Shown here: in pieces, positions 24,527 to 36,814 of the stretch
Position numbering within the stretch: position 1 is the stretch's first letter
Layout of the letters: each line of letters opens with the position of its first letter
Source of the DNA: Rhizobium sp. SSA_523
GTDB taxonomy: Bacteria; Pseudomonadota; Alphaproteobacteria; Rhizobiales; Rhizobiaceae
NCBI RefSeq assembly: GCF_030435705.1
Contig: NZ_CP129380.1
Coordinates: 1-64,000 of the forward strand
Reading direction: 5' to 3'
Length of the DNA stretch: 64,000 nt
Translations under genes and position numbers: made by a program
The notes under the pieces: model-generated
Database searches by the model: none
Told to the model about the DNA's origin: nothing
What the model saw: the letters and a program-made list of their open reading frames with translations, nothing else

Positions 24527-25600
24527 ATGACGACGGAGACCATTGAGAAAATAATCGGGCTCGACCTGAAAGCAGACGGTGCTTTGAAAGTTAACTCCCG
24601 AGAGAGACGTGACCTTGAGTTTAAAGAGACATGCGACGAGAACACTCGTCGAAGCTGCCTCAAGACCATAGCGGCCTTTGCGAACAATGGTGGTGGCCGG
24701 ATTGTTTTCGGGATCTCCGATAGTCCTCGTCACGTCGTCGGTGTTGATCCAGCCACATTTCCGGATGAGGCAGCTTTCGATGACTTTCTCCGGAAATATC
24801 TGTCCCCAGTTCCCGATGTGCTCATCGAGGATCATGAGATTGAGGGAAAAACGCTGGTGGTCGTCCGCGTAATGGCCATGAGCAAGCCGCCGGTAATTGC
24901 GGTGAAGGAGTGCCAAACTATCGCGGCCAAAAATAAAACGGTCTTGCAGCCCGGGGTGATTTATAACCGGCGCGGAGGTAAAACAGAGTGCGCTTCCAGC
25001 GACGAGTTTCGCCAAATGCTAGAGAAAAGGGATCAGGCAGTTCAGCAAGCCATCCTTAGCATCTTTGATCGCGCGCGTTCGATTGGGTTCGACCGGGTGT
25101 CTGTGGCAGATTTCTCAAACTTCACAAGTCCGGGCGACAACGTGACCCTCTACCTACCGGACGACGCAGCGAGAAGTCTGAACGTCATTGACCGCGCCAA
25201 ACTCGTGGAGGACGGCGGGGCACCTGCCTATGAGATCAAGGGGCGTATCAACCTCACCAGTTATTCCGATAAAGACCCGCGCAAACCGATGCTGCCGAGG
25301 CCAGCCGCCCGTGCGCTCAAAGCCGATATCGATGCTGCGCTTTGGAAAGGTGTTTCCTGGAGCGAGCAACATCTGCGCAAAGCGGCCAAACATCTGGGGT
25401 TTTGGGACAAGGCTGAGGGCGATGGGGTTCACACCACTGTGGATCAGCTCACTGGCCAGCCGCGCTATCTCGAACGCGGTCGCATTGCTGTCCGGGACTT
25501 CGCCCGGAATAACCCCGACGCCTTTGTTGATGCGACGTGCTCGCGACCAAATCGTGCGGAATGGAAGCGACGGAAAGCAGCCGTAGCCGGTCCGGCGTGA
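24527..25600 (+). CDS. AlbA_2/Schlafen-type DNA-binding protein
   Basis: A 357-residue protein whose first 130 residues are an AlbA_2 (divergent AAA-4 or Schlafen-like) domain: RRDLEFKETCDENTRRSCLKTI, AAFANNGGGRIVFGISDSPRHVVGVD, with the characteristic E-FK and AFANxxGGxIxxGI motifs. The rest has a region (VSVADFSNFTSPGDNVTLYL) and a C terminus not recognised by eye. Such proteins act as regulators, and some belong to toxin or anti-phage systems. It is divergent from the 390-residue hypothetical and ends 10 bases from a convergent resolvase. Its ribosome binding site is weak. Confidence 0.75.
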   Translation: MTTETIEKIIGLDLKADGALKVNSRERRDLEFKETCDENTRRSCLKTIAAFANNGGGRIVFGISDSPRHVVGVDPATFPDEAAFDDFLRKYLSPVPDVLIEDHEIEGKTLVVVRVMAMSKPPVIAVKECQTIAAKNKTVLQPGVIYNRRGGKTECASSDEFRQMLEKRDQAVQQAILSIFDRARSIGFDRVSVADFSNFTSPGDNVTLYLPDDAARSLNVIDRAKLVEDGGAPAYEIKGRINLTSYSDKDPRKPMLPRPAARALKADIDAALWKGVSWSEQHLRKAAKHLGFWDKAEGDGVHTTVDQLTGQPRYLERGRIAVRDFARNNPDAFVDATCSRPNRAEWKRRKAAVAGPA

Positions 25601-25610
25601 TGGCAGAACT

Positions 25611-26195
25611 CTACTGTCCGCTGCGTTGCTGCGCCTTGGCCCGCGCTTGCGGGAAATAATCGTAGAAGGTCACACGGCTGATCCCCAATTGCCGGGCAAT
25701 CTCCGCGATCGAGATGTCCCCGGCCGCGAGCATCGCACGTGCCGCTTTCTTGTCGTCTTCGGTGAGCTTCGGGCGACGGCCACCCTTGCGCCCACGGGCG
25801 AGGGCGGCTTTCAGGCCTTCCATGGTGCGCTCACGATTCAGGTCCAGAAAGTATTCCGCCATAGCGCCGTGGATCTGCAGGAAGAAGCGGCCTTGCGCGC
25901 TTTCACTGTCCAGATCTTCGGTGAGGCTGCGGAACTTGATGCCATCTGCGCGGAGCTTGTCGATCGTCCGCATCATTTCCACCAGGGAGCGGCCTAACCG
26001 GTCCAGCTTCCACACCACGAGCACGTCCTCGGGACGGAGATAGGCGAGGGCGGCTTCCAGCTCCGGCCGTTTACTGCCTGCCTTGCCGGACTTCTTCTCC
26101 TCGAAGATCTTCTCGCACCCGGCACGAGTAAGGGCGTCTCGCTGCATGTCGAGATTCTGATCGGCGGTCGAGACGCGGGCATATCCAATTTTCAT
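25611..26195 (-). CDS. Serine recombinase (Tn3-type resolvase/invertase)
   Basis: A 194-residue resolvase. The catalytic domain starts MKIGYARVSTADQN with the nucleophilic serine and continues through EDVLVVWKLDRLGRSL. Helix E (YFLDLNRERTMEGLKAALARGRKGG) leads to a Hin-type helix-turn-helix (SIAEIARQLGISRVTFYDYF). It is intact and of usual length. The region upstream has repeated TGTAAGGA motifs, in part within an inverted repeat, that could be its res site. It marks the left boundary of the RloAB/type IIG operon, whose terminator lies between them. Confidence 0.9.
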   Translation of the reverse strand: MKIGYARVSTADQNLDMQRDALTRAGCEKIFEEKKSGKAGSKRPELEAALAYLRPEDVLVVWKLDRLGRSLVEMMRTIDKLRADGIKFRSLTEDLDSESAQGRFFLQIHGAMAEYFLDLNRERTMEGLKAALARGRKGGRRPKLTEDDKKAARAMLAAGDISIAEIARQLGISRVTFYDYFPQARAKAQQRSGQ

Positions 26196-26312
26196 GTAAG
26201 GATAGTGCGACTATAGCCTTTTCCTGTCAAATGATTTCCTGACATATTTTCCTTACAAAAAGCCCGCCGAACTGGCGGGCTGCGAGCTGGGTGGGGACAT
26301 ATGTAAGGAAAA
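26195..26312. repeat. TGTAAGGA repeats flanking a terminator: candidate res site
   Basis: TGTAAGGA occurs at 26195-26202 (overlapping the resolvase start), inverted as TTTTCCTTACA at 26247-26257, and direct as TGTAAGGAAAA at 26302-26312. The last two form perfect 11-base arms 44 bases apart that enclose the operon terminator. GACATAT also repeats directly beside each arm (26241 and 26296). A small dyad ATAGT-GCG-ACTAT sits at 26202-26214. The array fits a multi-subsite recombinase site. Confidence 0.45.
26257..26280 (-). terminator. Rho-independent terminator of the defence operon
   Basis: Read on the minus strand, GCCCGCC, AGTTC, GGCGGGC forms a perfect 7-base GC stem with a 5-base loop followed by TTTTTG. 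It lies about 100 bases after the stop of the Abi_C-domain gene and closes the minus-strand unit that starts with the AAA ATPase. Confidence 0.85.
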
Positions 26313-26377
26313 CGGTCGTTTTTCGAACGCATCCGTCAGTCTCCTGAATCATCCGAGTGAGGAGAAAACGCGCCCGA

Positions 26378-27571
26378 TCAGCCTTCGACGTCCCCACGCC
26401 CTCCGGCTGAGGGAAGGGCTGCCTCGGCTTTTCGTGCTTTCCATGTCTCAACCAGGAACGTGGCCATAGTCCCGGATAAGTTTACTGCCAACTCGGCATG
26501 GCGAGGCTGGGGCTTGGCTTTCTTAGGACCTGCACTGTGGGCATCCCCCAGCTTACTCCGCAGCGACCCCAACAGCTCGACGATCTGCTGGCAACTACCA
26601 AGCAGCTGCTTGAAGGTCTGTTCGGTATGATCGTCAGGCGCCAGACGTAGGACCTTGGCCAGTTTCCGGTAAAGAACCGGCAGATCGGCATTGTCAGCAT
26701 AATCGGCCTGCGCTTCGTCCAAAATCCATTTGCAGACGTCTTCCAGCAGGGTACGCGCCAGGGTGATCGCCCCGCGCGGATCATCAACCCGTCGTTCCAC
26801 CGCTGCAATCCAGCGGGCATGAACGTCGGCCGGGTCGAAGGCGTGCAGCGCCGCGCTAATACCCTGGTCGGAGGGGCTGCCAAGAATGGCGCGCTGAATC
26901 TTGTAGACCGGGGAGCCTGAGACCTTCCCGACCATCGCCAGGCGATAGCCGTCATGCTGCAGGTGACCGTTCAGATCGGCAACGAGGGAGGCCTGCGCCT
27001 CCAGCGTCTGGACGACAGGCGCCACGATCTCTTCCAGAAAGCGAAACAGTTGCGCTTGCGAGCAGGTCAGAAAACCAAGATGAGTCAACAGCTCGTCGGT
27101 TTCCCAATCGTAGTTTCGAACTGTGTGCTGGTAGATGTCCTCCAGAAGACCCTTCGACGTGCCGTAAGGTGAGGGAATTTCGTCCAGCGGCCATGCCCGC
27201 TGGATCAATTCGACTTCTTCCATTTCGGTCGCAAGTGGCCTGGTTTTAAGCGCCGATAAAAGCCGACGCCGCGTGATCTCTGTGATACCCGGCTGCCCAA
27301 ACTCCTCGATCTTGGCAACCTGCTCGGACAACCGATAGCTGGCAACCTCCTGCAGGAGTTTTTTTGCCATAGGCAAAAGATCCTCCGCCGGCACGGAAGC
27401 TAGGCGATTCATCGCGTACTTAAATTTGCTGCCAAAGGCTTCCGAACTATCTCCACTCTCCAACCCCAGGCGCACGCATATGCCCGGAACGTCATAGGCC
27501 TTGTGGTCGGAAATCGCGTTGGCGATCTCGGTGCGAAGGTGGCGGATCATGGGTGCGGGGAATGTCGTCAT
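26378..27571 (-). CDS. Abi_C-domain (abortive infection) protein
   Basis: A 397-residue protein. The C-terminal third matches the Abi_C family: DPRGAITLARTLLEDVCKWIL, DLPVLYRKLAKVLRLAPDDHTEQTF, then LGSLRSKLGDAHS. This domain ends many abortive-infection proteins. The N-terminal 250 residues are not recognised. The ATG at 27571 overlaps the stop of a 44-residue ORF in ATGA, indicating translational coupling; a GTG at 27595 is an alternative. It is the last gene of the RloA-RloB-type IIG unit, before a strong terminator. This suggests it is an effector or accessory of that system rather than a free-standing gene. Confidence 0.8.
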   Translation of the reverse strand: MTTFPAPMIRHLRTEIANAISDHKAYDVPGICVRLGLESGDSSEAFGSKFKYAMNRLASVPAEDLLPMAKKLLQEVASYRLSEQVAKIEEFGQPGITEITRRRLLSALKTRPLATEMEEVELIQRAWPLDEIPSPYGTSKGLLEDIYQHTVRNYDWETDELLTHLGFLTCSQAQLFRFLEEIVAPVVQTLEAQASLVADLNGHLQHDGYRLAMVGKVSGSPVYKIQRAILGSPSDQGISAALHAFDPADVHARWIAAVERRVDDPRGAITLARTLLEDVCKWILDEAQADYADNADLPVLYRKLAKVLRLAPDDHTEQTFKQLLGSCQQIVELLGSLRSKLGDAHSAGPKKAKPQPRHAELAVNLSGTMATFLVETWKARKAEAALPSAGGRGDVEG

Positions 27572-27702
27572 CGGTCGAAACAGAACTCGCTCCACTTAGT
27601 CCAGACGGCGATATGCACGGGCTGGATGGCAGGGAGGGCGGTCACGTCTCGCGCCTGGGGGGCAAAATGAATAAGCTCAGGGAGGTGGTCTGAAAGACTC
27701 AT
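27568..27702 (-). CDS. 44-residue ORF bridging the type IIG and Abi_C genes
   Basis: An unrecognised short ORF encoding MSLSDHLPELIHFAPQARD, then VTALPAIQPVHIAVWTKWSEF and CFDR. Its ATG overlaps the type IIG stop (ATGA at 27699-27702), and its own TGA overlaps the Abi_C ATG (ATGA at 27568-27571). GAGGAG stands 5 bases before its start, the strongest ribosome binding site in this part of the operon. The layout argues that it is translated, either as a small regulatory or antitoxin-like peptide or as a coupling leader. The composition is not membrane-like. No family is known to me. Confidence 0.6.
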   Translation of the reverse strand: MSLSDHLPELIHFAPQARDVTALPAIQPVHIAVWTKWSEFCFDR

Positions 27703-30700
27703 ACACTCTCCTCAAGAAGCTTTATCTCATCTGCTGTGAGCTCGAATAGTTCATAAACGAGCGTATTAATGCGGTCTTCGTTCTCCTTTATTTCAACTGA
27801 CAGGCGGGCGATTTCGGTTTTGTCACGCCTAATCCAATCCTCCCACGCCGTGCGCTCTGCCAGTGGGATATCTGCCTTGAACACCTTCTTGACCTCTGCC
27901 CGGAAGGCCGAAAAGTCAGGCATATCCCACCATTCAGTAAGCTTAGTCGATAGTTTCGCCTCTGTTCCGGCTGGGGCAAGATCGGGGATACGCCGTGTCA
28001 ACGCATGCTGTAATCGGTACCGTGCTTCCGCGGCCTTCTGACTAGCTTGTGCCAGTACGGATAGTTCGGCTTTCTGAGCGGGCATTATCGACGGGATCGG
28101 AATGGTTTCAACGTACTGAACGCGCAGCTCTAATCGCCATTCTCCGCCGCGCATCGCGCTGCAAATGCTACGCAGATAGAACCAAATCACCGTTGAATTA
28201 AGTAAAGCAAGCAAATCCCAATGCCCGCTTGGGTGGAAATATGTCTTATCGTTCGAAAAGAATCCCGTTTCATCGTATGAAAATTTGCGGCCTTGAGAGA
28301 AATGCGGATATGAAATCTTTGGCTTACTGAACGGTTCGGCATAAGCCTCCTGTGCCTGTTGAAGCTCAAACCATTCCTGCTTAGTTGCCCGTTTTTCTAG
28401 CTGATCCTTGAACGGCAGTAACCAATCTCGGATGGCCGGATAATCCTCGATGTTAATGCGGTTTTTCGGGATATAGATAATCCATAGTCCGCGAGGCTCA
28501 GCGCGCCACCGCTTCAGATCTTTCCCTTCCAGGAACGGCTTCAGTAGATCGGCCGATTTTGGATCTTGGGCACACAAGCGTTCTTTAGTCGCTGAATCGA
28601 TAACAAAAGCGTCGTTCAACCCTGTCTTGATACCGTACAGGGGTGAACCATAGACTTCCTTCAGTGTTCTCTTTCCCTTGCGTATCTTATCCCTCAAGGC
28701 CTTGAGCGCCGCGTTTTCCAGTTCCCACGAATCTGCTGACAAAGCCGCCTGCGGATAGGCCTCGGCCTTCTTGTCAAAGGTCACGGTGAAATTCGTTTCC
28801 GGCAAGTCTTCCACCTTCCAAAAACGCAAAGCGTGCGTCTTGGCAGGCTCTTCCCGACGCATGGTCAGAATAGCAGGGTAGGTGGTCACGCCCTCGAATA
28901 CTTGAAGGTCACCAAAATCGACTACGGTTTCAAGTGTCGCCTGGGCACGCAAAAAGTTCCGAAGTGGCCGACCGGAACCGGTTTTGAAGAAAGTCGATGA
29001 TGAGATGTAGCCCAGACGACCACCGGGCTTCAACAGCTTCAGACCGCGCTCGAAAAAGTAGCAGTATAGGTCAGCCCGGTCTGAGACGACTTCGAAGCGG
29101 GTCTCCAGATAGGGCTTCATGGCCTTCAGTAGTTCCATCCGCACATAGGGTGGATTGCCGAGCACGACATCAAAGCCGCCATCTGCAAACACCTCGGGGA
29201 AGGCGGTTCGCCAGCTGAAGCCGTGCTCCAGGTATGCAAAGCTCGAATCTTCAATCAGGCTGTCACCAACCTTCAGATTGTCATCGAGACTGTCGAGCAT
29301 CTTGCCACGCCGCGCCGTCTTCACCCACAGCGATAGCTTGGCAATCTCCACGCTCTCGGCGTTCACATCGACGCCAAACAGATTGTTGGTCAGAATCTCA
29401 CTGTCCGGGTCGAAGAGCCCAAGTGCGCCACCCTTCAGGTCAGCAATCTTCTCATTTACACGGGTCAGCTCGGCCTTCATGAAATCGAAGGCCAACACCA
29501 AAAACACCCCGGAACCGCAGGCTGGATCAACAATACGCAAGGTTTTCAGACGGTCGCGGTAGGCTTCCCAGGCCTCAAGCTCAGCGCCCTTGCGCTTCCA
29601 CTGGATTTCCTCGTCATCGGCGGTCGCGCCCTTCTTGGCATAGACTGCCAGAACCTCCGCGAAAATATCCTTCAGATGGGCCCCAAGGGTCTGCTGGACG
29701 ATAAAGCGGGCAATATAGTCCGGCGTGTACACCACACCGTCACGTTTACGGCGACCGGATGTGCCGCTGCTCTTGGCCTCCTCAACCTCTTCGCCACGGG
29801 CTTCCGCCTGAAGCCGCTCGACGTCGGCAATCGACTGCTCGAAAATATGACCTAGGACCGTAACGGAGACCTGCGAGGCAAAGTCGTAGTCACCAATCTT
29901 TTTGAAGCCTTCGCAGACCTCGTCAGGGATGGTGATGCCGTCCACAATCGGGTCGGGCGCAAACAGGCCGCCATTATAGGGCGGAACGTCCAGGCGGGCG
30001 TTACCCTTGTCGATGGCGGCGAATAGGCCCTTGAAGTTGTCCCATACTGGGCGCGGATTAAACGGGTCGGCGTTTTCGAACGCCTTTTCCAGTATCCGTT
30101 TCGGCAAAAGACCAGTGTCTTCGGCAAAAGCCGTGAACAATACCCGGTCTAAGATTGTCTGCGCGGCACTAATGGCATCGAGAGGGTGTACCGAGGGCGC
30201 TGCCTTCTGAACCGCTGCGATAAGGCTGCTACGAAGTGCCTTGTAGTCTCGATACAGCTCGTTGGTGATGTCTTTATCTTCCTTCCGGCTTTCAGCCAAA
30301 AGGGCAAGGGTGCGGCCTGACAAGAGATTATCGGCGCTCAGAAGCAACATAAAGCGGGCGTATTCGGCGGGCTCGGTCAGCCGAGCGAATTCGAATTTCT
30401 CATACGAAGATGTACCCTCACCGAAACCATACAGCCGCAGTTCCACATAGTTGGAAACCAGTACCCACTTCACGCCGGGTGCCTTGGTCGCATATTCCCA
30501 TGCCTGTTGTACCGGACTCTTGGCGCGACCGGGCATGATTGCGTCCAGGTCTTTGGTCTTGGCGCCTTTAAGCTCGAAGGGAGCGATGATTTGTGATTTT
30601 GTCGGGCCAAAATGTCCGAGTGCCAAGTCGACAGAACCACCTAAAATCGCTTTCTCGGCCGTGACAGTGTGCTCGGCACTTGTGACCACACCGGTGTAAC

Positions 30701-30881
30701 CGAGAACAGCCTCAACGATGTTAGCTTTAAAACTTCCGTGGAGGGCCGTTTCTTTCTCTCTCAAAATGCGGCCCGACCGCACCATCTCGGCCCACTCTTC
30801 GAGGAGTCGACGATGGGGTTCCGGAACCGGTTGCACTGGGCCGACGTTGCGAGAAATCGTCTTGGGGTTAAAGAGCATCAT
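27699..30881 (-). CDS. Type IIG (Eco57I-like) restriction-modification enzyme
   Basis: A 1060-residue single-chain restriction enzyme and adenine methyltransferase. The N-terminal nuclease region has SVDLALGHF, then APFELKGAK, fitting a PD-(D/E)XK site. The N6-adenine methylase core follows: GVVYTPDYIARFIV, SAM-binding VDPACGSGVFLV, and catalytic NPPY in VVLGNPPYVRME. The C-terminal target-recognition domain (TaqI-like specificity region) includes YFHPSGHWDLLALLNSTVIWFYL and ends in a coiled coil. All key motifs are intact. It lies 13 bases after rloB and is coupled by ATGA to the 44-residue ORF. Methylation would protect the host at an asymmetric site; the recognition sequence cannot be read from the protein. 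Confidence 0.92.
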   Translation of the reverse strand: MMLFNPKTISRNVGPVQPVPEPHRRLLEEWAEMVRSGRILREKETALHGSFKANIVEAVLGYTGVVTSAEHTVTAEKAILGGSVDLALGHFGPTKSQIIAPFELKGAKTKDLDAIMPGRAKSPVQQAWEYATKAPGVKWVLVSNYVELRLYGFGEGTSSYEKFEFARLTEPAEYARFMLLLSADNLLSGRTLALLAESRKEDKDITNELYRDYKALRSSLIAAVQKAAPSVHPLDAISAAQTILDRVLFTAFAEDTGLLPKRILEKAFENADPFNPRPVWDNFKGLFAAIDKGNARLDVPPYNGGLFAPDPIVDGITIPDEVCEGFKKIGDYDFASQVSVTVLGHIFEQSIADVERLQAEARGEEVEEAKSSGTSGRRKRDGVVYTPDYIARFIVQQTLGAHLKDIFAEVLAVYAKKGATADDEEIQWKRKGAELEAWEAYRDRLKTLRIVDPACGSGVFLVLAFDFMKAELTRVNEKIADLKGGALGLFDPDSEILTNNLFGVDVNAESVEIAKLSLWVKTARRGKMLDSLDDNLKVGDSLIEDSSFAYLEHGFSWRTAFPEVFADGGFDVVLGNPPYVRMELLKAMKPYLETRFEVVSDRADLYCYFFERGLKLLKPGGRLGYISSSTFFKTGSGRPLRNFLRAQATLETVVDFGDLQVFEGVTTYPAILTMRREEPAKTHALRFWKVEDLPETNFTVTFDKKAEAYPQAALSADSWELENAALKALRDKIRKGKRTLKEVYGSPLYGIKTGLNDAFVIDSATKERLCAQDPKSADLLKPFLEGKDLKRWRAEPRGLWIIYIPKNRINIEDYPAIRDWLLPFKDQLEKRATKQEWFELQQAQEAYAEPFSKPKISYPHFSQGRKFSYDETGFFSNDKTYFHPSGHWDLLALLNSTVIWFYLRSICSAMRGGEWRLELRVQYVETIPIPSIMPAQKAELSVLAQASQKAAEARYRLQHALTRRIPDLAPAGTEAKLSTKLTEWWDMPDFSAFRAEVKKVFKADIPLAERTAWEDWIRRDKTEIARLSVEIKENEDRINTLVYELFELTADEIKLLEESV

Positions 30882-30894
30882 TATCCAAAGCCAT

Positions 30895-31557
30895 TCAATT
30901 AAATCGGTCAGCTATTTTCAGTAGCTCACCGGTCAGCACATCGATATCCGTGTAAGGTTCATTGCCATCATGCGGTGTAAATCTAGCCCTGAGGCTCTCT
31001 GCCCTTGCCGTCGCCTCAGGAATCCGGTCGTTCGTATCCCGGAAAACAGTCAGACTGTTCTTGGCATAGCCCGGATACGCCGCCGGCTTCTTCAGCTCGG
31101 CATATACAGTGTCGCGGTGGATGGGCGCCAACACGTCCCTAAAATGCAGCAGCACCCACAGCTCGAAGTTGGGCACCGATGGGATGGCTTTGAACAGCAC
31201 CTTGGCCTGCAGGTCATTCTTCAGTGCCTGATCAGTCGCTTCGGCTTTCGCTAACGCATTGTGGTAGCTGGCATGATCATCACGGTCGAAGACGACATAG
31301 ACCCGATCAAAAGCTCTGGTCTCCTCGAACCGGTCGATCGCATACTCAACGATTTGCAGTGGCGCCGTCCCATAATCCGATGGGACAATGGCAATATCCG
31401 CGTTGGGCAGCCGTTTCTCGCGACGAATAGCGGTGAAATAGTTGACCTCAGTTTTCGCGCCCTCACACACGATCAGCATACGATCGTAAGGCCGCTTTCG
31501 CCCGGCTTTTCGCGCGATGCGGTCTTCTTGTCGCTCAAAGCGGTGATGTTTTGCCAA
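30895..31557 (-). CDS. rloB: RloB-family protein (AbiLii-like, Toprim-related)
   Basis: A 220-residue RloB-family protein. The Toprim-like motifs are visible: RMLIVCEGAKTEVNYFTAI (invariant Glu) and DRVYVVFDRDDHASY (the DxD motif). The family was named from ORFs linked to type I restriction loci and is the second component of the AbiL abortive-infection system, partnered with an AAA ATPase. The start is a TTG with GGGAAGAG upstream. It sits 14 bases after the ATPase gene and 13 bases before the type IIG gene, so it is the middle of one transcript. Confidence 0.85.
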   Translation of the reverse strand: MAKHHRFERQEDRIARKAGRKRPYDRMLIVCEGAKTEVNYFTAIRREKRLPNADIAIVPSDYGTAPLQIVEYAIDRFEETRAFDRVYVVFDRDDHASYHNALAKAEATDQALKNDLQAKVLFKAIPSVPNFELWVLLHFRDVLAPIHRDTVYAELKKPAAYPGYAKNSLTVFRDTNDRIPEATARAESLRARFTPHDGNEPYTDIDVLTGELLKIADRFN

Positions 31558-31571
31558 AAACTGCTCTTCCC

Positions 31572-32801
31572 TTACCCCAGTATCGGAATGCCACCGTAGC
31601 GCCCGCCAAGGTATCCCTTTTCAAGGGCTTCCCCCTTCCGAGGAGAAAAGTCCAACAGCGGGAACAGGTGGGAGCCTTGGTCATTGTCTTTCTCAGTGAA
31701 CCACACCTGGTCGCGCCGAAGCTTTCCGCCATCGAGCAGCGACACGTCATGGGTTGAGAAAATCAACTGGGCTCCGTTCCGATTCAACTCAGGGTCATTA
31801 AACATCTGCACGATCTTCAAGACAAGCAGGGGGTGCAGGCTACGGTCCAGCTCGTCCACTATCAATGTCCGACCCTTTTGCAGGATGTCTAGGATAGGCC
31901 CCGCCAGCTCGAAGAGGATTTGGGTTCCGGCAGACTCTTCGCCGATATCAAATTTATAGAGTTCACCTTCCGCCATATGACCGAACTGCGGGATATCGAA
32001 TTCTGCATCCTGGACTTCGGGCGCCCCGCCCGGGAAACTGACGTGGAATTGGCGCCCCATCCGCTTGTCAACCGAGACAGTCGAGATCCCCGTATCTGCG
32101 GCTGCCATAATGGATTGGACGCGCTCGCGATTACCTGCAGTCTGGACATAGCCCGCCGTAAACCCAAACCCGATGCCTGGTCCGTCTGGCAGTATCACCA
32201 AGTCCTCCGCGAACCGCTGATAGAGAGGCTTTAGCTGCTCATTATTGAGCTGAACCGCCGTGGTGAGGAAAAGTACTTCCTTACGGGTCGAGGCTTCCCA
32301 GACCTTCTTTTGGCCCACGAAATAGTCGCTGTAGGTGTACTCGTACTTTTTCTTCTTCTCGTTGAACGTGCGGGAGAACCAGACCTGCGGTTTGGTCTTC
32401 TCATAGACCAGCAGCCATTCGCTCAGTACCTGGCGACGGTTGATCTCGAAGCCATACTGATGGCGGACCCCGCCAATCAAAAACGTGACCTCGAACCGCG
32501 TGGGGTGATCCGTATGGTCAGGACGCATACGGAAAGGGGCAAGGTTGCTTTCCTGGTCTGGCTGGATTTGATTGGAGGTCATCACCATCAACTGCATAAA
32601 CTGCAGGGCGCGGATGACATTGGATTTACCGCTCGCATTGGCACCGTAGATCGCAGCGCTATTGAGGATACGCTTGACCTTATCCAAACCACTCGGACGG
32701 GTATGGGTGCGCTCCAAGGTCGGGTCCGAGCTGGCAGCCATGCTGAAGATGGCTTGGTCCCGGAACGAACGGAAGTTGGTAAAGCGGAAATCAAGTAGCA
32801 T
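31572..32801 (-). CDS. rloA: AAA ATPase of the RloA/AbiLi type
   Basis: A 409-residue ABC/SMC-like ATPase of the AAA15/AAA21 group. It starts MLLDFRFTNFRSFRDQAIFSM, with Walker A IYGANASGKSNVI near residue 55, and towards the C terminus Walker B-type TLIVDELDRSLHPLLVLKI and the switch region QLIFSTHDVSLL. With RloB it matches AbiLi/AbiLii, a two-gene anti-phage abortive-infection system. The ATG at 32801 is chosen; a TTG at 32813 is possible. It is the first gene of the defence unit, and the 700 bases upstream hold its promoter. Confidence 0.87.
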   Translation of the reverse strand: MLLDFRFTNFRSFRDQAIFSMAASSDPTLERTHTRPSGLDKVKRILNSAAIYGANASGKSNVIRALQFMQLMVMTSNQIQPDQESNLAPFRMRPDHTDHPTRFEVTFLIGGVRHQYGFEINRRQVLSEWLLVYEKTKPQVWFSRTFNEKKKKYEYTYSDYFVGQKKVWEASTRKEVLFLTTAVQLNNEQLKPLYQRFAEDLVILPDGPGIGFGFTAGYVQTAGNRERVQSIMAAADTGISTVSVDKRMGRQFHVSFPGGAPEVQDAEFDIPQFGHMAEGELYKFDIGEESAGTQILFELAGPILDILQKGRTLIVDELDRSLHPLLVLKIVQMFNDPELNRNGAQLIFSTHDVSLLDGGKLRRDQVWFTEKDNDQGSHLFPLLDFSPRKGEALEKGYLGGRYGGIPILG

Positions 32802-32813
32802 CTGGGGTGACAA

Positions 32814-33100
32814 TCCTGTTTACCGTCATCAAATGCACATTTTCTGCAATCTGACAATTTATTTCGGCGTAACCGCCTGAACGGCACGAGGATGCAGTTA
32901 CCAAAAGGTGACGCTATTGCCGGGCGCGGAAAGGAATAAAAGACATGCTCCCGCCGTTTGCTGAGCAGGGACGTACGGGGGCTTACAACGATATTTGACT
33001 ACAGGAGCAACGTTCTTGGTTGCAATTTGATTGCCGCTCGGCCACTTTCTGATCAGAGCAACGCTCCGGGGTCAGCGCCAAGCGCTGGTCGCAGTGGATT
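32814..33100. other. Promoter region of the defence operon
   Basis: No gene is supported here. The stretch next to 32814-32880 is AT-richer (for example TTTACCGTCATCAAATG and CTGACAATTTATTTCGGCG), as expected for the promoter of the minus-strand defence unit, although no clear -35/-10 pair can be defended. Towards 33100 the sequence could belong to a plus-strand transcript that ends at the terminator at 33101. Confidence 0.3.
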
Positions 33101-33124
33101 AAGGCCCCTCACGGGGCCTTTTCC
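33101..33124 (+). terminator. Intrinsic terminator of an unassigned plus-strand transcript
   Basis: AAGGCCCC (33101-33108), TCAC, GGGGCCTT (33113-33120) and TT form a perfect 8-base stem with a T tract on the plus strand. No protein-coding gene lies upstream on that strand for thousands of bases, so the transcript it ends may be a small RNA. A preceding stem CAGCG-CCAA-GCGCTG lies close by. Confidence 0.65.
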
Positions 33125-33239
33125 ATTTAATTCGATCTTTACCTTTGGGAATGCAGGTTGCAGCTTCTGCAACCCTGCCTGACCGGCGAGGTCTGGGGGT
33201 AGCAAGGGCAAGGGTTTCAGACGGCGGGCGCACAAGCCT

Positions 33240-33530
33240 GCGCGGAGCCTCGGGAGACCGCCCCCTTGCCTGCGCGAGGGGCAACGCCCCTTAGGTTTTC
33301 TTCCGGATCAGAGCCGCACCCGTGCGAGATCCGGGGCAAGCTATGAAGAACATCGGAGCTTTCAGCATCGCGCCGACCGCAGGGCGGGAAAGCGGGAATT
33401 CTCGACACGCCTAGGACCGGTTGAAAAGGTAGCCGCAGGAGCCTCAGCATAGCGACCCATAGGGAGAGGCGGGACCGACTGCCTCCGGCCGGGCGTTCCG
33501 TATGACCGGCGCACTGCGCCCCTGACCTCA
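33240..33530. other. GC-rich structured region between terminator and ParDE
   Basis: This 290-base stretch has no supported gene but many strong stems. AGGGGC-AAC-GCCCCT is near 33277-33291. A nested structure has CCGGATC (33303-33309) pairing with GATCCGG (33328-33334) around an inner GCAC-CC-GTGC stem. More GC-rich complementarity follows to 33520. A 23-codon plus-strand frame starts at 33341-33343 (MKNIGAFSIAPTAGR and on) without a clear ribosome site. It could be a structured RNA, an origin or partition-like site, or the leader/trailer of parDE. I do not recognise it. Confidence 0.4.
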
Positions 33531-33531
33531 T

Positions 33532-33822
33532 TCACGTCAGCCAGTTCGACACATCACGCGCACCGTAAACGATAGCCGCGACAAAGACCCCGTAGTCCTG
33601 TGGCTCATAGATGATGATGTAGCGCCCCTCAACCAGAACCCGCGCCGTGGCACTCAGTTCGGGGCGGGCTGCACCCATGTGCGGCTGGGTCGCTGCCAGT
33701 TCGGCACGTTCGATGATGCGAAGCAGAAGCGCGTCGGCTGCGGGCTCGTTATCCAGAGCGATCGTTCGCCAGATGTCACGCATGTCGGCTTCCGCACGCG
33801 GACTGAAGACTGCCTTAGCCAC
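33532..33822 (-). CDS. parE: ParE/RelE-family toxin
   Basis: A 96-residue toxin with the ParE layout: VFSPRAEADMRDIWRTIA at the N terminus, then RIIERAELAATQPHMGAARPEL, and the C-terminal beta strands RYIIIYEPQDYGVFVAAIVYGARDV. ParE toxins poison DNA gyrase; RelE relatives cut mRNA. The GARDV-type end is ParE-like. Its start overlaps the antitoxin stop by 8 bases, and the pair is one unit under the palindrome at 34117. The gene looks complete and probably stabilises the element. Confidence 0.88.
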   Translation of the reverse strand: MAKAVFSPRAEADMRDIWRTIALDNEPAADALLLRIIERAELAATQPHMGAARPELSATARVLVEGRYIIIYEPQDYGVFVAAIVYGARDVSNWLT

Positions 33823-34090
33823 GCTTGCGGGCTTCCGCCTTCAGCTCACCCAGTAACTGCTTGCCATCCAGCGGGCGCCCTTCGCCGCTGGCCATGCCTT
33901 CCTCATAAGCCTGCTTCAGGCGTGCCAGCTCAAGCTGGCGCACTTCCTCACGCTGCTCCCACAGGCGGAGAGCGTCGCGTACGATTTCGCTGTTCGAGGC
34001 ATAGCCGCCGGTTTCAACGGCAGCCTGCATCATTGCCGCCTGATGCGGGGTGAGGGATACGGTAAGGGTGCGCATGGTCGTAGCTTTCAT
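33815..34090 (-). CDS. parD: ParD-family antitoxin
   Basis: A 91-residue antitoxin. The N-terminal ribbon-helix-helix is TLTVSLTPHQAAMMQAAVETGGYASNSEIVRDALRLWEQRE, the ParD pattern. The C terminus (LKQAYEEGMASGEGRPLDGKQLLGELK) is the toxin-binding tail. AGGGTGAG stands before the ATG at 34090; an ATG at 34075 is an alternative. The gene begins 27 bases after an 11-base-arm palindrome, the likely autoregulatory operator. Confidence 0.9.
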   Translation of the reverse strand: MKATTMRTLTVSLTPHQAAMMQAAVETGGYASNSEIVRDALRLWEQREEVRQLELARLKQAYEEGMASGEGRPLDGKQLLGELKAEARKRG

Positions 34091-34987: not shown

Positions 34988-36814
34988 TTAGGCTGTGGGG
35001 CTGACCCAGATTTGGCGCGCAACACCGAATAGTTCCAAGCCTCGGGCGGCGATCGTCTCCTCATCCCAGACGTCGTAATTATTCAGATCTCGGTTCAAAG
35101 CGAGGCTTGAATGAGAGCGAACGGCAGGCATCTTTACTGAAAATGGGCCATGTGAGACGGCCGTATTCAGCGACTGAGTAAGCAGAGTTAGATTGCCAAG
35201 CTTGTTCACAGACATCTGCCGTTGAAGCCGCCGGAAAATGAGGTCAGCGTCATTCTCGTCTTCGATATGATCGAACCCCGGGACGGGCCAATGAGCTTGC
35301 CACTTTTGGGGCATGATATGCTCAACGCTCAGCTGTGATTTGATCTCGATATCTTCATTCCGAGCTGACCTCTTTGCACGCTCGATGGCTTCCAATATGT
35401 AGCGGAGCCGAGGTTGACGTGTGCCTTGGTATTGGTCCCGATCGATCCAACCGGCCTGCCATTCGATGTCGGTAGGCCACCTTTCGGTATCAGCCTGCCT
35501 CTGCGAAAGGTACTCGATCAAAGCTGCGACTTTATCCGGGCCAGCGGCCCGCAATTTTTCGATGATCCCGACAAATAAACGATTGTACCCTTTGGTGGAC
35601 AAGCCACAGATATCACGGCGCAAAATATAGCTTTCGAGAACCTGCAGCGCGTCGGAAAGAGCGTCGCCAACCTCTGGCGCCGTCGCCAGATAAACGACCA
35701 AGGGCATCGCTGTTGAGACGTCAAACGCATCGGCGAAACGGCCGAACTGGCCCAGCGGATCATCCTTGTCCTGGTCGAAAAGCCGTTTTTCTACTGAAGC
35801 CGTCGCAGTGATGGACTCAAGCTCAGCAACCACAGAAGCAAACGGACGCTCATTTAGTACCCAACGACGGTATCCCTCGAAGAGGGTTTCCACAGATACG
35901 ATATCGGACAGGTGCATCGAGAGATGGTCTGTCAGCATCCAGTCCAGACGCTGGCGCGTCTGACGACCACGTGACGCGACCTGGCTCCAGAATGCCCGAT
36001 CCAACGGCAGCCAATGCTTTTCATAAAGCTGATCGACTTTGAGAGATCCGTGCTCTTGGCCCATTCCCTTAGCACGCTGGAAGATGAAGTTCCGCATGAG
36101 GTCCGCCGGGGTCAAATCAACGCCGCGACTGTTGAGGGTTTCGAAGATGGTTTGAGGATCATCACCGCCTTCGAGTTCGATCGACACGACAGCCAAACCC
36201 TCTTTGAGGGCTTCGAACAGCAGCTCCAGCTTCAATTCGTCGAAGACGCCGTCAATCGTCGCGTGTTCTTCAACCTTTTCGCGGAAAAAAGCGTGTGCGG
36301 CCACAGATCTGCGGACAAACCCGTCCTCGTCGGTTGGCTTCACGGTGATCGCATCTGCATCGACGCCCGGATCGACAATTGAAACAAAGGACCGCCGATC
36401 GGTCAGCGACGGCCAGAGTTTGTAGCGCTCAACCTCTCCATGTTCCATGACCCCGTCGTTGAGCAGATATTTCTGAAGCTCATCAGCATACTTTGAGCCG
36501 TGGGCACGAGCGACATCCCGAATAGCCGACAAGAGAAGCTGGAACGTTGTCAAACGCTGCTGCCCATCAATAATCTCATAGGCCTGAACCTGTTTCCCGA
36601 AGGTCTTGAGTTGATTGATTACCATCGCTCCCATGAAATGAGGCGTCAGCGTCGAACGGTCGGAATTAAGCCGGTCAATCGCACGCTCGATGTCTTCCCA
36701 GAGAAGCTCAAGCTGTGGCGTTACCCGCCATGCATATTGGCGTTGATAGAGAGGGATCAGGTAACGTTTCTTGCCATCGAACAGTTCAACAATCGAGCGG
36801 GTATAAGGCTTCAT
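34988..36814 (-). CDS. DUF262/DUF1524 protein, GmrSD-like type IV restriction
   Basis: A 608-residue fusion of DUF262 (ParB/Srx-like NTPase) and DUF1524 (HNH nuclease). The N terminus has YLIPLYQRQYAWR and the signature IDGQQRLTT. The C-terminal nuclease has SQLSVEHIMPQKWQAHW, a His-Me finger motif, and the NKLGNLTLLT stretch that ends such domains. Relatives include GmrSD, which cuts glucosylated hydroxymethylcytosine DNA, plus BrxU and SspE, which sense other modifications. All key residues appear present. It is a free-standing restriction gene in the defence island. The modified base recognised is unknown. Confidence 0.88.
   Translation of the reverse strand: MKPYTRSIVELFDGKKRYLIPLYQRQYAWRVTPQLELLWEDIERAIDRLNSDRSTLTPHFMGAMVINQLKTFGKQVQAYEIIDGQQRLTTFQLLLSAIRDVARAHGSKYADELQKYLLNDGVMEHGEVERYKLWPSLTDRRSFVSIVDPGVDADAITVKPTDEDGFVRRSVAAHAFFREKVEEHATIDGVFDELKLELLFEALKEGLAVVSIELEGGDDPQTIFETLNSRGVDLTPADLMRNFIFQRAKGMGQEHGSLKVDQLYEKHWLPLDRAFWSQVASRGRQTRQRLDWMLTDHLSMHLSDIVSVETLFEGYRRWVLNERPFASVVAELESITATASVEKRLFDQDKDDPLGQFGRFADAFDVSTAMPLVVYLATAPEVGDALSDALQVLESYILRRDICGLSTKGYNRLFVGIIEKLRAAGPDKVAALIEYLSQRQADTERWPTDIEWQAGWIDRDQYQGTRQPRLRYILEAIERAKRSARNEDIEIKSQLSVEHIMPQKWQAHWPVPGFDHIEDENDADLIFRRLQRQMSVNKLGNLTLLTQSLNTAVSHGPFSVKMPAVRSHSSLALNRDLNNYDVWDEETIAARGLELFGVARQIWVSPTA

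Follow-up and report, generated by a model that had tools for sequence, protein, structure and literature searches.

A probable mosaic defence operon in an apparent exchange slot between RloAB and a resolvase block on a plasmid-like contig of Rhizobium sp. SSA_523

The window analysed here, a 64,000-nucleotide stretch of Rhizobium sp. SSA_523 (positions 1 to 64,000 of the forward strand of contig NZ_CP129380.1, assembly GCF_030435705.1), carries on its minus strand a row of defence genes that begins with an RloA-RloB pair (RloAB), continues with a type IIG restriction-methyltransferase ('IIG-A') and a 44-codon open frame, and ends with an AbiJ-family abortive-infection gene (the Abi_C gene), followed by a res-like block and a serine resolvase gene (Table 1). 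We consider it probable that these genes form a mosaic defence operon in an exchange slot reaching from RloAB to the resolvase, and that they represent plausibly co-transcribed modules that work independently. A mosaic is preferred to a single system because the contents of the slot change between similar flanks. The source contig is 227,819 bp long and can be regarded as plasmid-like because it carries a RepC gene at 222,000, so the defence genes sit on a plasmid-like contig of 228 kb. A preliminary description of the window had described five minus-strand frames separated by gaps of 13-14 bases or ATGA overlaps, and the coordinates agree with this: RloA and RloB are 14 bases apart, RloB and IIG-A 13 bases, and ATGA overlaps join the IIG-A gene to the 44-codon frame and this frame to the Abi_C gene. 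The identities that it gave to RloA, RloB, the type IIG enzyme and the Abi_C protein are likewise borne out by family matches far above chance.

Table 1 Features of the RloAB-to-resolvase region, in window coordinates
Feature	Position	Strand	Length and basis
RloA/AbiLi-type ABC ATPase	31572..32801	-	409 aa; Pfam AAA_21 (6e-35), PADLOC AbiLi (4e-99); motifs Walker A GANASGKS, Walker B LIVDELD
RloB/AbiLii-type Toprim-like protein	30895..31557	-	220 aa, TTG start; Pfam RloB PF13707 (1e-35), PADLOC AbiLii (7.7e-24); motifs CEG and DRD
Type IIG restriction-methyltransferase (IIG-A)	27699..30881	-	1060 aa; Pfam Eco57I, MmeI, TaqI_C; PADLOC PDLC03609 (2.6e-147); motifs
44-codon open frame	27568..27702	-	without family match; holds the tyrosine-recombinase scrap
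Internal scrap of a tyrosine-recombinase gene	27600..27651	-	52 bases; DNA match to Mesorhizobium integrase genes
AbiJ_NTD3 + Abi_C protein (Abi_C gene)	26378..27571	-	397 aa; Pfam PF18860 (AbiJ_NTD3, 1.3e-43) and PF14355 (Abi_C, 3.6e-20); PADLOC AbiJ (3.7e-19)
Conserved res-like block including hairpin terminator 26281-26261	26195..26321	-	127 bases; DNA identity across loci
Serine resolvase	25611..26195	-	194 aa; Pfam Resolvase (1e-42) and HTH_7

The evidence for the slot comes from related plasmids, in which the flanks are kept and the genes between them are replaced (compared loci carry L-numbers, the window itself being L001). When the operon was compared by blastn with the Agrobacterium plasmids L002 and L003, the match ran at 92-93% identity to the last codons of RloB (30911), stopped there, and resumed at 26321 with 87-91% identity, 127 bases before the resolvase start. 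These plasmids hold a different enzyme in the slot ('IIG-B', 1043 aa, matching PDLC03610 and Type_ISP_C), whose sole significant BLASTP match to IIG-A covers 86 residues at 31%, and no Abi_C gene. The metagenome-assembled genome (MAG) D8_MAG_00060 has the window's own enzyme, split by contig ends into L030 and L085, which we join into one locus because they belong to the same MAG and the split falls at residue 813. Its RloA (residues 166-409), RloB and N-terminal 813 IIG residues are 94-98% identical to the window and its C-terminal IIG piece 92%; the enzyme gene is followed by a gene for a 350-aa protein, and then by the same block and resolvase. In Peteryoungia (L113, L133), a type ISP enzyme of 1630 aa lies 16 bases behind RloAB, followed by an annotated ATP-binding/TOPRIM and UvrD pair, which we take to be Gabija-like, and then by the resolvase block, an order that assumes circularity in stepping across the ends of a record listed as linear. 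The ISP enzyme shares 23% identity over 805 residues with the Agrobacterium enzyme, and since the two are thus distant relatives, the three restriction-modification (R-M) families found in the slot amount to two lineages plus one. The Shinella locus L112 has a hypothetical gene and an IS3 transposase gene between RloAB and the block and no R-M gene, and in R. jaguaris (L114) unrelated genes follow RloAB. DNA identity of the flanks is 87-93% in L002/L003 and L030/L085; in L113/L133 and L112 it is 74-77% for RloAB and 85-88% for the block. The serine resolvase is 95-98% identical in L002, L003 and L085. On rhizobial plasmids, RloAB and the res/resolvase block therefore look like the constant borders of an exchange slot. 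Defence hotspots of mobile elements, such as those of P2/P4 (PMC9122126), likewise combine fixed flanks with exchanged defence genes; what sets the present slot apart is the make-up of its flanks, RloAB on one side and the res/resolvase block on the other.

The right-hand flank also explains the terminator. The preliminary description had placed a strong terminator only after the last frame, and the hairpin at 26281-26261 (8 pairs, 7 of them G-C) is indeed the strongest minus-strand terminator-like site in 26000-34000. Other minus-strand sites, all weaker, fall within the Abi_C gene (27399-27382) and the IIG gene (28231-28208 and 28233-28217), the same scan giving 11 terminator-like sites in all against 8.8 +/- 2.8 by chance. 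The hairpin is, moreover, part of the putative res-like block at 26321-26195, which is 87-91% identical in L085, L002, L003 and L112, downstream of unrelated genes; in L112 it comes after the IS3 transposase gene, and the last gene before the hairpin is a different one in each of L085, L002/L003 and the window. Because the block follows unrelated genes elsewhere, we regard the terminator as a part of the resolvase region rather than of the gene row, and its use as the mark of a five-frame operon is rejected. A single transcript from upstream of RloA to the hairpin is nevertheless plausible, since the genes are tightly packed.

The last gene of the row appears to have its own history. The Abi_C protein is predicted to be a HEPN RNase: R-x4-6-H is the HEPN motif, and the protein has R338-x6-H345, both residues being invariant when the window protein was aligned with 35 of 120 listed relatives (36 sequences). 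A PDB sequence search with this protein gave no match up to E 1. It shares both Pfam domains and the R-x6-H motif with the AbiJ-type abortive-infection proteins that carry AbiJ_NTD3 and belong to the HEPN superfamily, but here the gene stands behind a recombinase scrap and is apparently removable cargo. The scrap lies in the 44-codon frame, which had been counted as a component of the system and which found no match in family searches. Its bases 27651-27600 are 84.6% identical (E 2e-6) to annotated tyrosine-recombinase genes on two Mesorhizobium plasmids, and codons 18-34 (27651-27601) match, in the same reading frame, residues 58-74 of a 318-aa Mesorhizobium integrase (82%); the same residues of the frame match residues 56-72 of a Shinella integrase in L092 (71%), and this internal integrase piece was the sole match to the 44-residue product beyond the window's own genome among 98 loci. 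The frame is thus most likely junction debris and no gene, and its interpretation as a gene or as a toxin or antitoxin is rejected because of the recombinase scrap inside it.

Relatives of the Abi_C gene are found in similar company. On the Ti plasmid L004, a near-full-length, degenerate copy of that tyrosine recombinase stops a few bases short of the Abi_C gene, and on a Rhizobium gallicum plasmid (L005) just the last 15-23 recombinase codons precede it. Serine-type recombinase genes are annotated at two further loci: that of Methylocystis (L143) overlaps the Abi_C start, and that of Azospirillum (L144) ends about 150 bases ahead of the Abi_C gene. No recombinase was seen directly upstream of the Abi_C gene in the other five loci (L139-L142, L145). 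As a recombinase gene or remnant precedes the Abi_C relatives in four of nine loci, the Abi_C gene looks like cargo that often stands behind recombinase genes, and in the window it probably arrived behind such a gene, of which a scrap of 17 codons is left.

If the five frames formed one system, the set should recur, and we therefore counted its parts in three surveys. IIG-A was followed through 69 genome-contig loci, many of them on short contigs (the gene start with 1.4 kb or more upstream is present in 47, the gene end with 1.3 kb or more downstream in 53, and both ends, with 2 kb or more upstream and 1.3 kb or more downstream, in 37). RloAB adjoins IIG-A in one of the 69 (L030), and the Abi_C profile hidden Markov model had no match across them. 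A count over 397 genomes of the order gave 19 with IIG relatives (E up to 1e-30) and 13 with RloB. Two genomes had both: the window's own and G228, whose copies are on separate contigs. For the Abi_C protein, ten plasmid records had at least 80% coverage in one place, and nine were compared (H62 was left out): neither RloAB nor this IIG enzyme was present in any of the nine, one of which (L145) has, on the opposite strand, a remotely related methyltransferase of 24% identity. The RloB survey comprised 71 loci, several of which share a genome: 49 from phylum and class searches (the best 35 of 73 and the best 14 of 23 listed places), 13 from order and family searches, and 9 made up of the window and plasmids. 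RloB was detected in 70 of them, with a large methyltransferase starting directly downstream in four (the window, L002, L003 and L113), and among the 70 the window alone has this IIG enzyme behind RloB. Setting aside the loci of the window's close clade (L001, L002, L003, L112, L113 and L114) leaves 64, of which 55 have an adjacent RloA (none was detected in nine) and 56 have at least 1 kb downstream (eight have less). No large methyltransferase was found directly downstream of RloB in any of the 64 by a screen with two motifs and phmmer searches with three enzymes, which recovered the four known positives and could miss methyltransferases that are divergent or cut by a contig end. Candidate methyltransferases farther off were one of 538 aa at 1.6 kb upstream of RloB in L124, a locus with only 14 bases downstream of RloB, and one of 225 aa at a distance of 5.3 kb in L119. 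Among the papers listed, none was found that by title or abstract start concerns a combination of RloAB, a type IIG enzyme and an Abi_C gene, in a search that covers subscription journals thinly.

The two flanking defence proteins belong to a known kind of pair. AbiL of Lactococcus lactis and RloA/RloB of Campylobacter are the same two-gene combination of an ATPase and an RloB/Toprim-like protein in the same order, with AbiLi and AbiLii matches; unlike AbiL, the putative defence pair in the window is followed within 13 bases by a type IIG gene. The architecture of an ABC ATPase with a Toprim nuclease is also that of PARIS, and the second-best PADLOC match of RloA is the PARIS protein AriA (2.8e-38). 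The effectors differ: RloB matches PF13707 and AbiLii, and its matches as listed (up to E 0.1 in Pfam and E 0.01 in PADLOC) include neither DUF4435 nor an AriB model, whereas AriB is a DUF4435 protein (PMC9122126). RloAB is most likely a PARIS-like sensor-nuclease pair. PDB sequence searches gave no match for RloB up to E 1 and none for RloA up to E 0.001. Two small Klebsiella plasmids (3.5 and 5.2 kb) hold the RloAB pair without any other annotated defence gene, and one further plasmid record has a short piece 60-80% identical to the C-terminal half of RloA. As to a phage origin, exact peptide patterns, which detect close relatives only, matched viral contigs three times for RloA and once for the IIG enzyme, and none was confirmed as a relative.

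IIG-A agrees with the type IIG enzymes of the Eco57I/MmeI kind (PADLOC REase_MTase_IIG) in that it combines, in one chain, an N-terminal nuclease-like motif (D...FELK, a pattern match with no structure behind it), a predicted N6-adenine methyltransferase with the motifs DPACGSG and NPPY, and a TaqI-like specificity domain. Its relatives of solved structure are adenine methyltransferases, including RM.BsaXI and MmeI. The same enzyme family occurs with another partner, AbiEi-AbiEii, which lies 3 bases upstream of the IIG gene in six loci: L008, L196 and L198, among seven plasmid loci fetched, are Rhodobacterales according to their records, and L035, L052 and L054 (Sulfitobacter, Rhodovulum), among the 69 genome loci, presumably belong to this order as well. 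These loci may represent one recent cassette, since their AbiE proteins are 92-99% identical to the L008 copies. On the S. meliloti pSymA plasmid L006 (1005-5954), three proteins without a family match and an Hsp70-family protein are encoded directly upstream of the IIG relative, and this group is possibly another defence module.

In the proposed mechanism, RloAB and the res/resolvase block would flank a slot now occupied by the type IIG enzyme and then by the AbiJ-family gene, and one transcript would start ahead of RloA and end at the hairpin (26281-26261). In this scheme, the IIG enzyme would methylate host DNA and cut unmodified phage DNA, RloA as the sensor would keep RloB, the effector, inactive until a phage signal frees RloB to shut down the cell, and the AbiJ-family protein would cleave RNA upon a signal of its own. 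The modules would thus act side by side, having expression and mobility in common but not the trigger.

Several observations weigh against this mosaic reading. The promoter scan gave no sigma-70-like site upstream of RloA; as its three sites, one of them on the minus strand inside the IIG gene (28111-28084), are at chance level (3.3 +/- 1.9), it says little either way about the transcript. The Sinorhizobium pSymA plasmids L006 and L199 keep a C-terminal relic of RloB (55% over 75 residues) directly upstream of a gene of the same IIG family, which indicates that an RloB-IIG junction predates the window plasmid. Furthermore, the R-M gene, where present, is always the first behind RloB, in four of five slot contents and with three families, a placement more regular than a random defence hotspot would give. 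In the close RloAB clade, defined by RloA at least 72% identical (the window, the D8 MAG, L002, L003, L113, L112 and L114), five of seven members, the window included, have a single-chain R-M enzyme of one of these three families 13-29 bases behind RloB, and the difference between the families suggests about three R-M acquisitions. A dependence of RloAB on the R-M enzyme is therefore possible. It could take the form of a PARIS-like guard, in which RloAB fires when a phage blocks restriction, whichever R-M enzyme lies downstream, and the Abi_C gene is an unrelated passenger. The literature holds parallels: in Campylobacter jejuni, rloA and rloB lie within a type I hsd region (PMC2928727), RloB, also noted as AbiLii, is on record from operons of type I R-M systems (PMC10440598), some AbiJ solos were reported in an operon with R-M systems (PMC3710099), and the ATPase-Toprim pair AriAB, the PARIS counterpart suggested by the AriA match of RloA, is triggered by the anti-restriction protein Ocr (PMC9122126, PMC12409363). 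However, none of the 64 other RloB loci has such a neighbour directly downstream, two of the seven clade members (L112 and L114) lack an R-M gene, and the seven are not independent and may merely share an exchange slot, so we hold the guard function to be rather unlikely. A broader proposal is that single-chain R-M enzymes on alphaproteobacterial plasmids repeatedly share an operon with an interchangeable upstream two-gene suicide module (RloAB with IIG-A, IIG-B or a type ISP enzyme; AbiEi-AbiEii with IIG-A). Restriction and a death back-up would then travel and be expressed as a mix-and-match unit, with RloAB sensing the failure of whichever R-M enzyme is present; we put this forward as a speculative and unlikely extension.

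The preliminary description had gone further and proposed a layered system of five parts, the short frame included, with restriction as the first line and RloAB and the Abi_C protein as joint back-up. The gene packing and the ATGA overlaps speak for it, but no second locus with the full set was found among the 69 IIG loci, and the set is missing from the other 69 of 70 RloB loci and from the nine Abi_C loci; the short frame is recombinase debris, and the terminator is common to unrelated genes. In the absence of co-conservation the layered system is unsupported, and we regard it as highly improbable. It is also improbable, though less so, that the operon is partly dead cargo in which some modules became unexpressed or non-functional after the swaps. 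A recombinase remnant does lie within the operon. The recombinase gene found ahead of the Abi_C gene on two other plasmids is gone here, and the Abi_C gene starts at an ATGA overlap with the debris frame; on the other hand, all four large genes are open and near full length for their families, with their motifs kept. The mosaic of independent modules thus remains the reading that we prefer.

Further genes of interest lie around the operon. A GmrSD/DUF262 type IV restriction-like protein (34988-36814, minus strand) is 95% identical to its counterpart on the Agrobacterium plasmid L002, where the gene is likewise syntenic with RloAB, and its gene is part of the same defence neighbourhood. Between it and RloA there are two small minus-strand frames of 96 and 91 aa (33532-34090), at a place where L002 has an annotated RelE/ParE-ParD pair. 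On the other side, a plus-strand gene for a Schlafen/AlbA_2-domain protein with a weak PADLOC PDC-S50 match (24527-25600) converges on the resolvase gene. The 350-aa protein of the MAG locus L085 (1074-2126), encoded behind the same IIG enzyme where the window has the Abi_C gene, has a hydrophobic stretch and no Pfam or PADLOC match, and is a candidate defence protein.

In place of a five-gene system that includes a conserved micro-frame, which proved to be a false lead, this analysis offers an exchange slot that comes in natural swap variants. Close relatives of RloAB are combined with three R-M families or with none, and the same IIG family is combined with RloAB, with AbiE or with neither. 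Such variants bear on the question of whether pairs of the AbiL type act as guards of R-M enzymes, in the manner of PARIS, or merely share a parking place with them.

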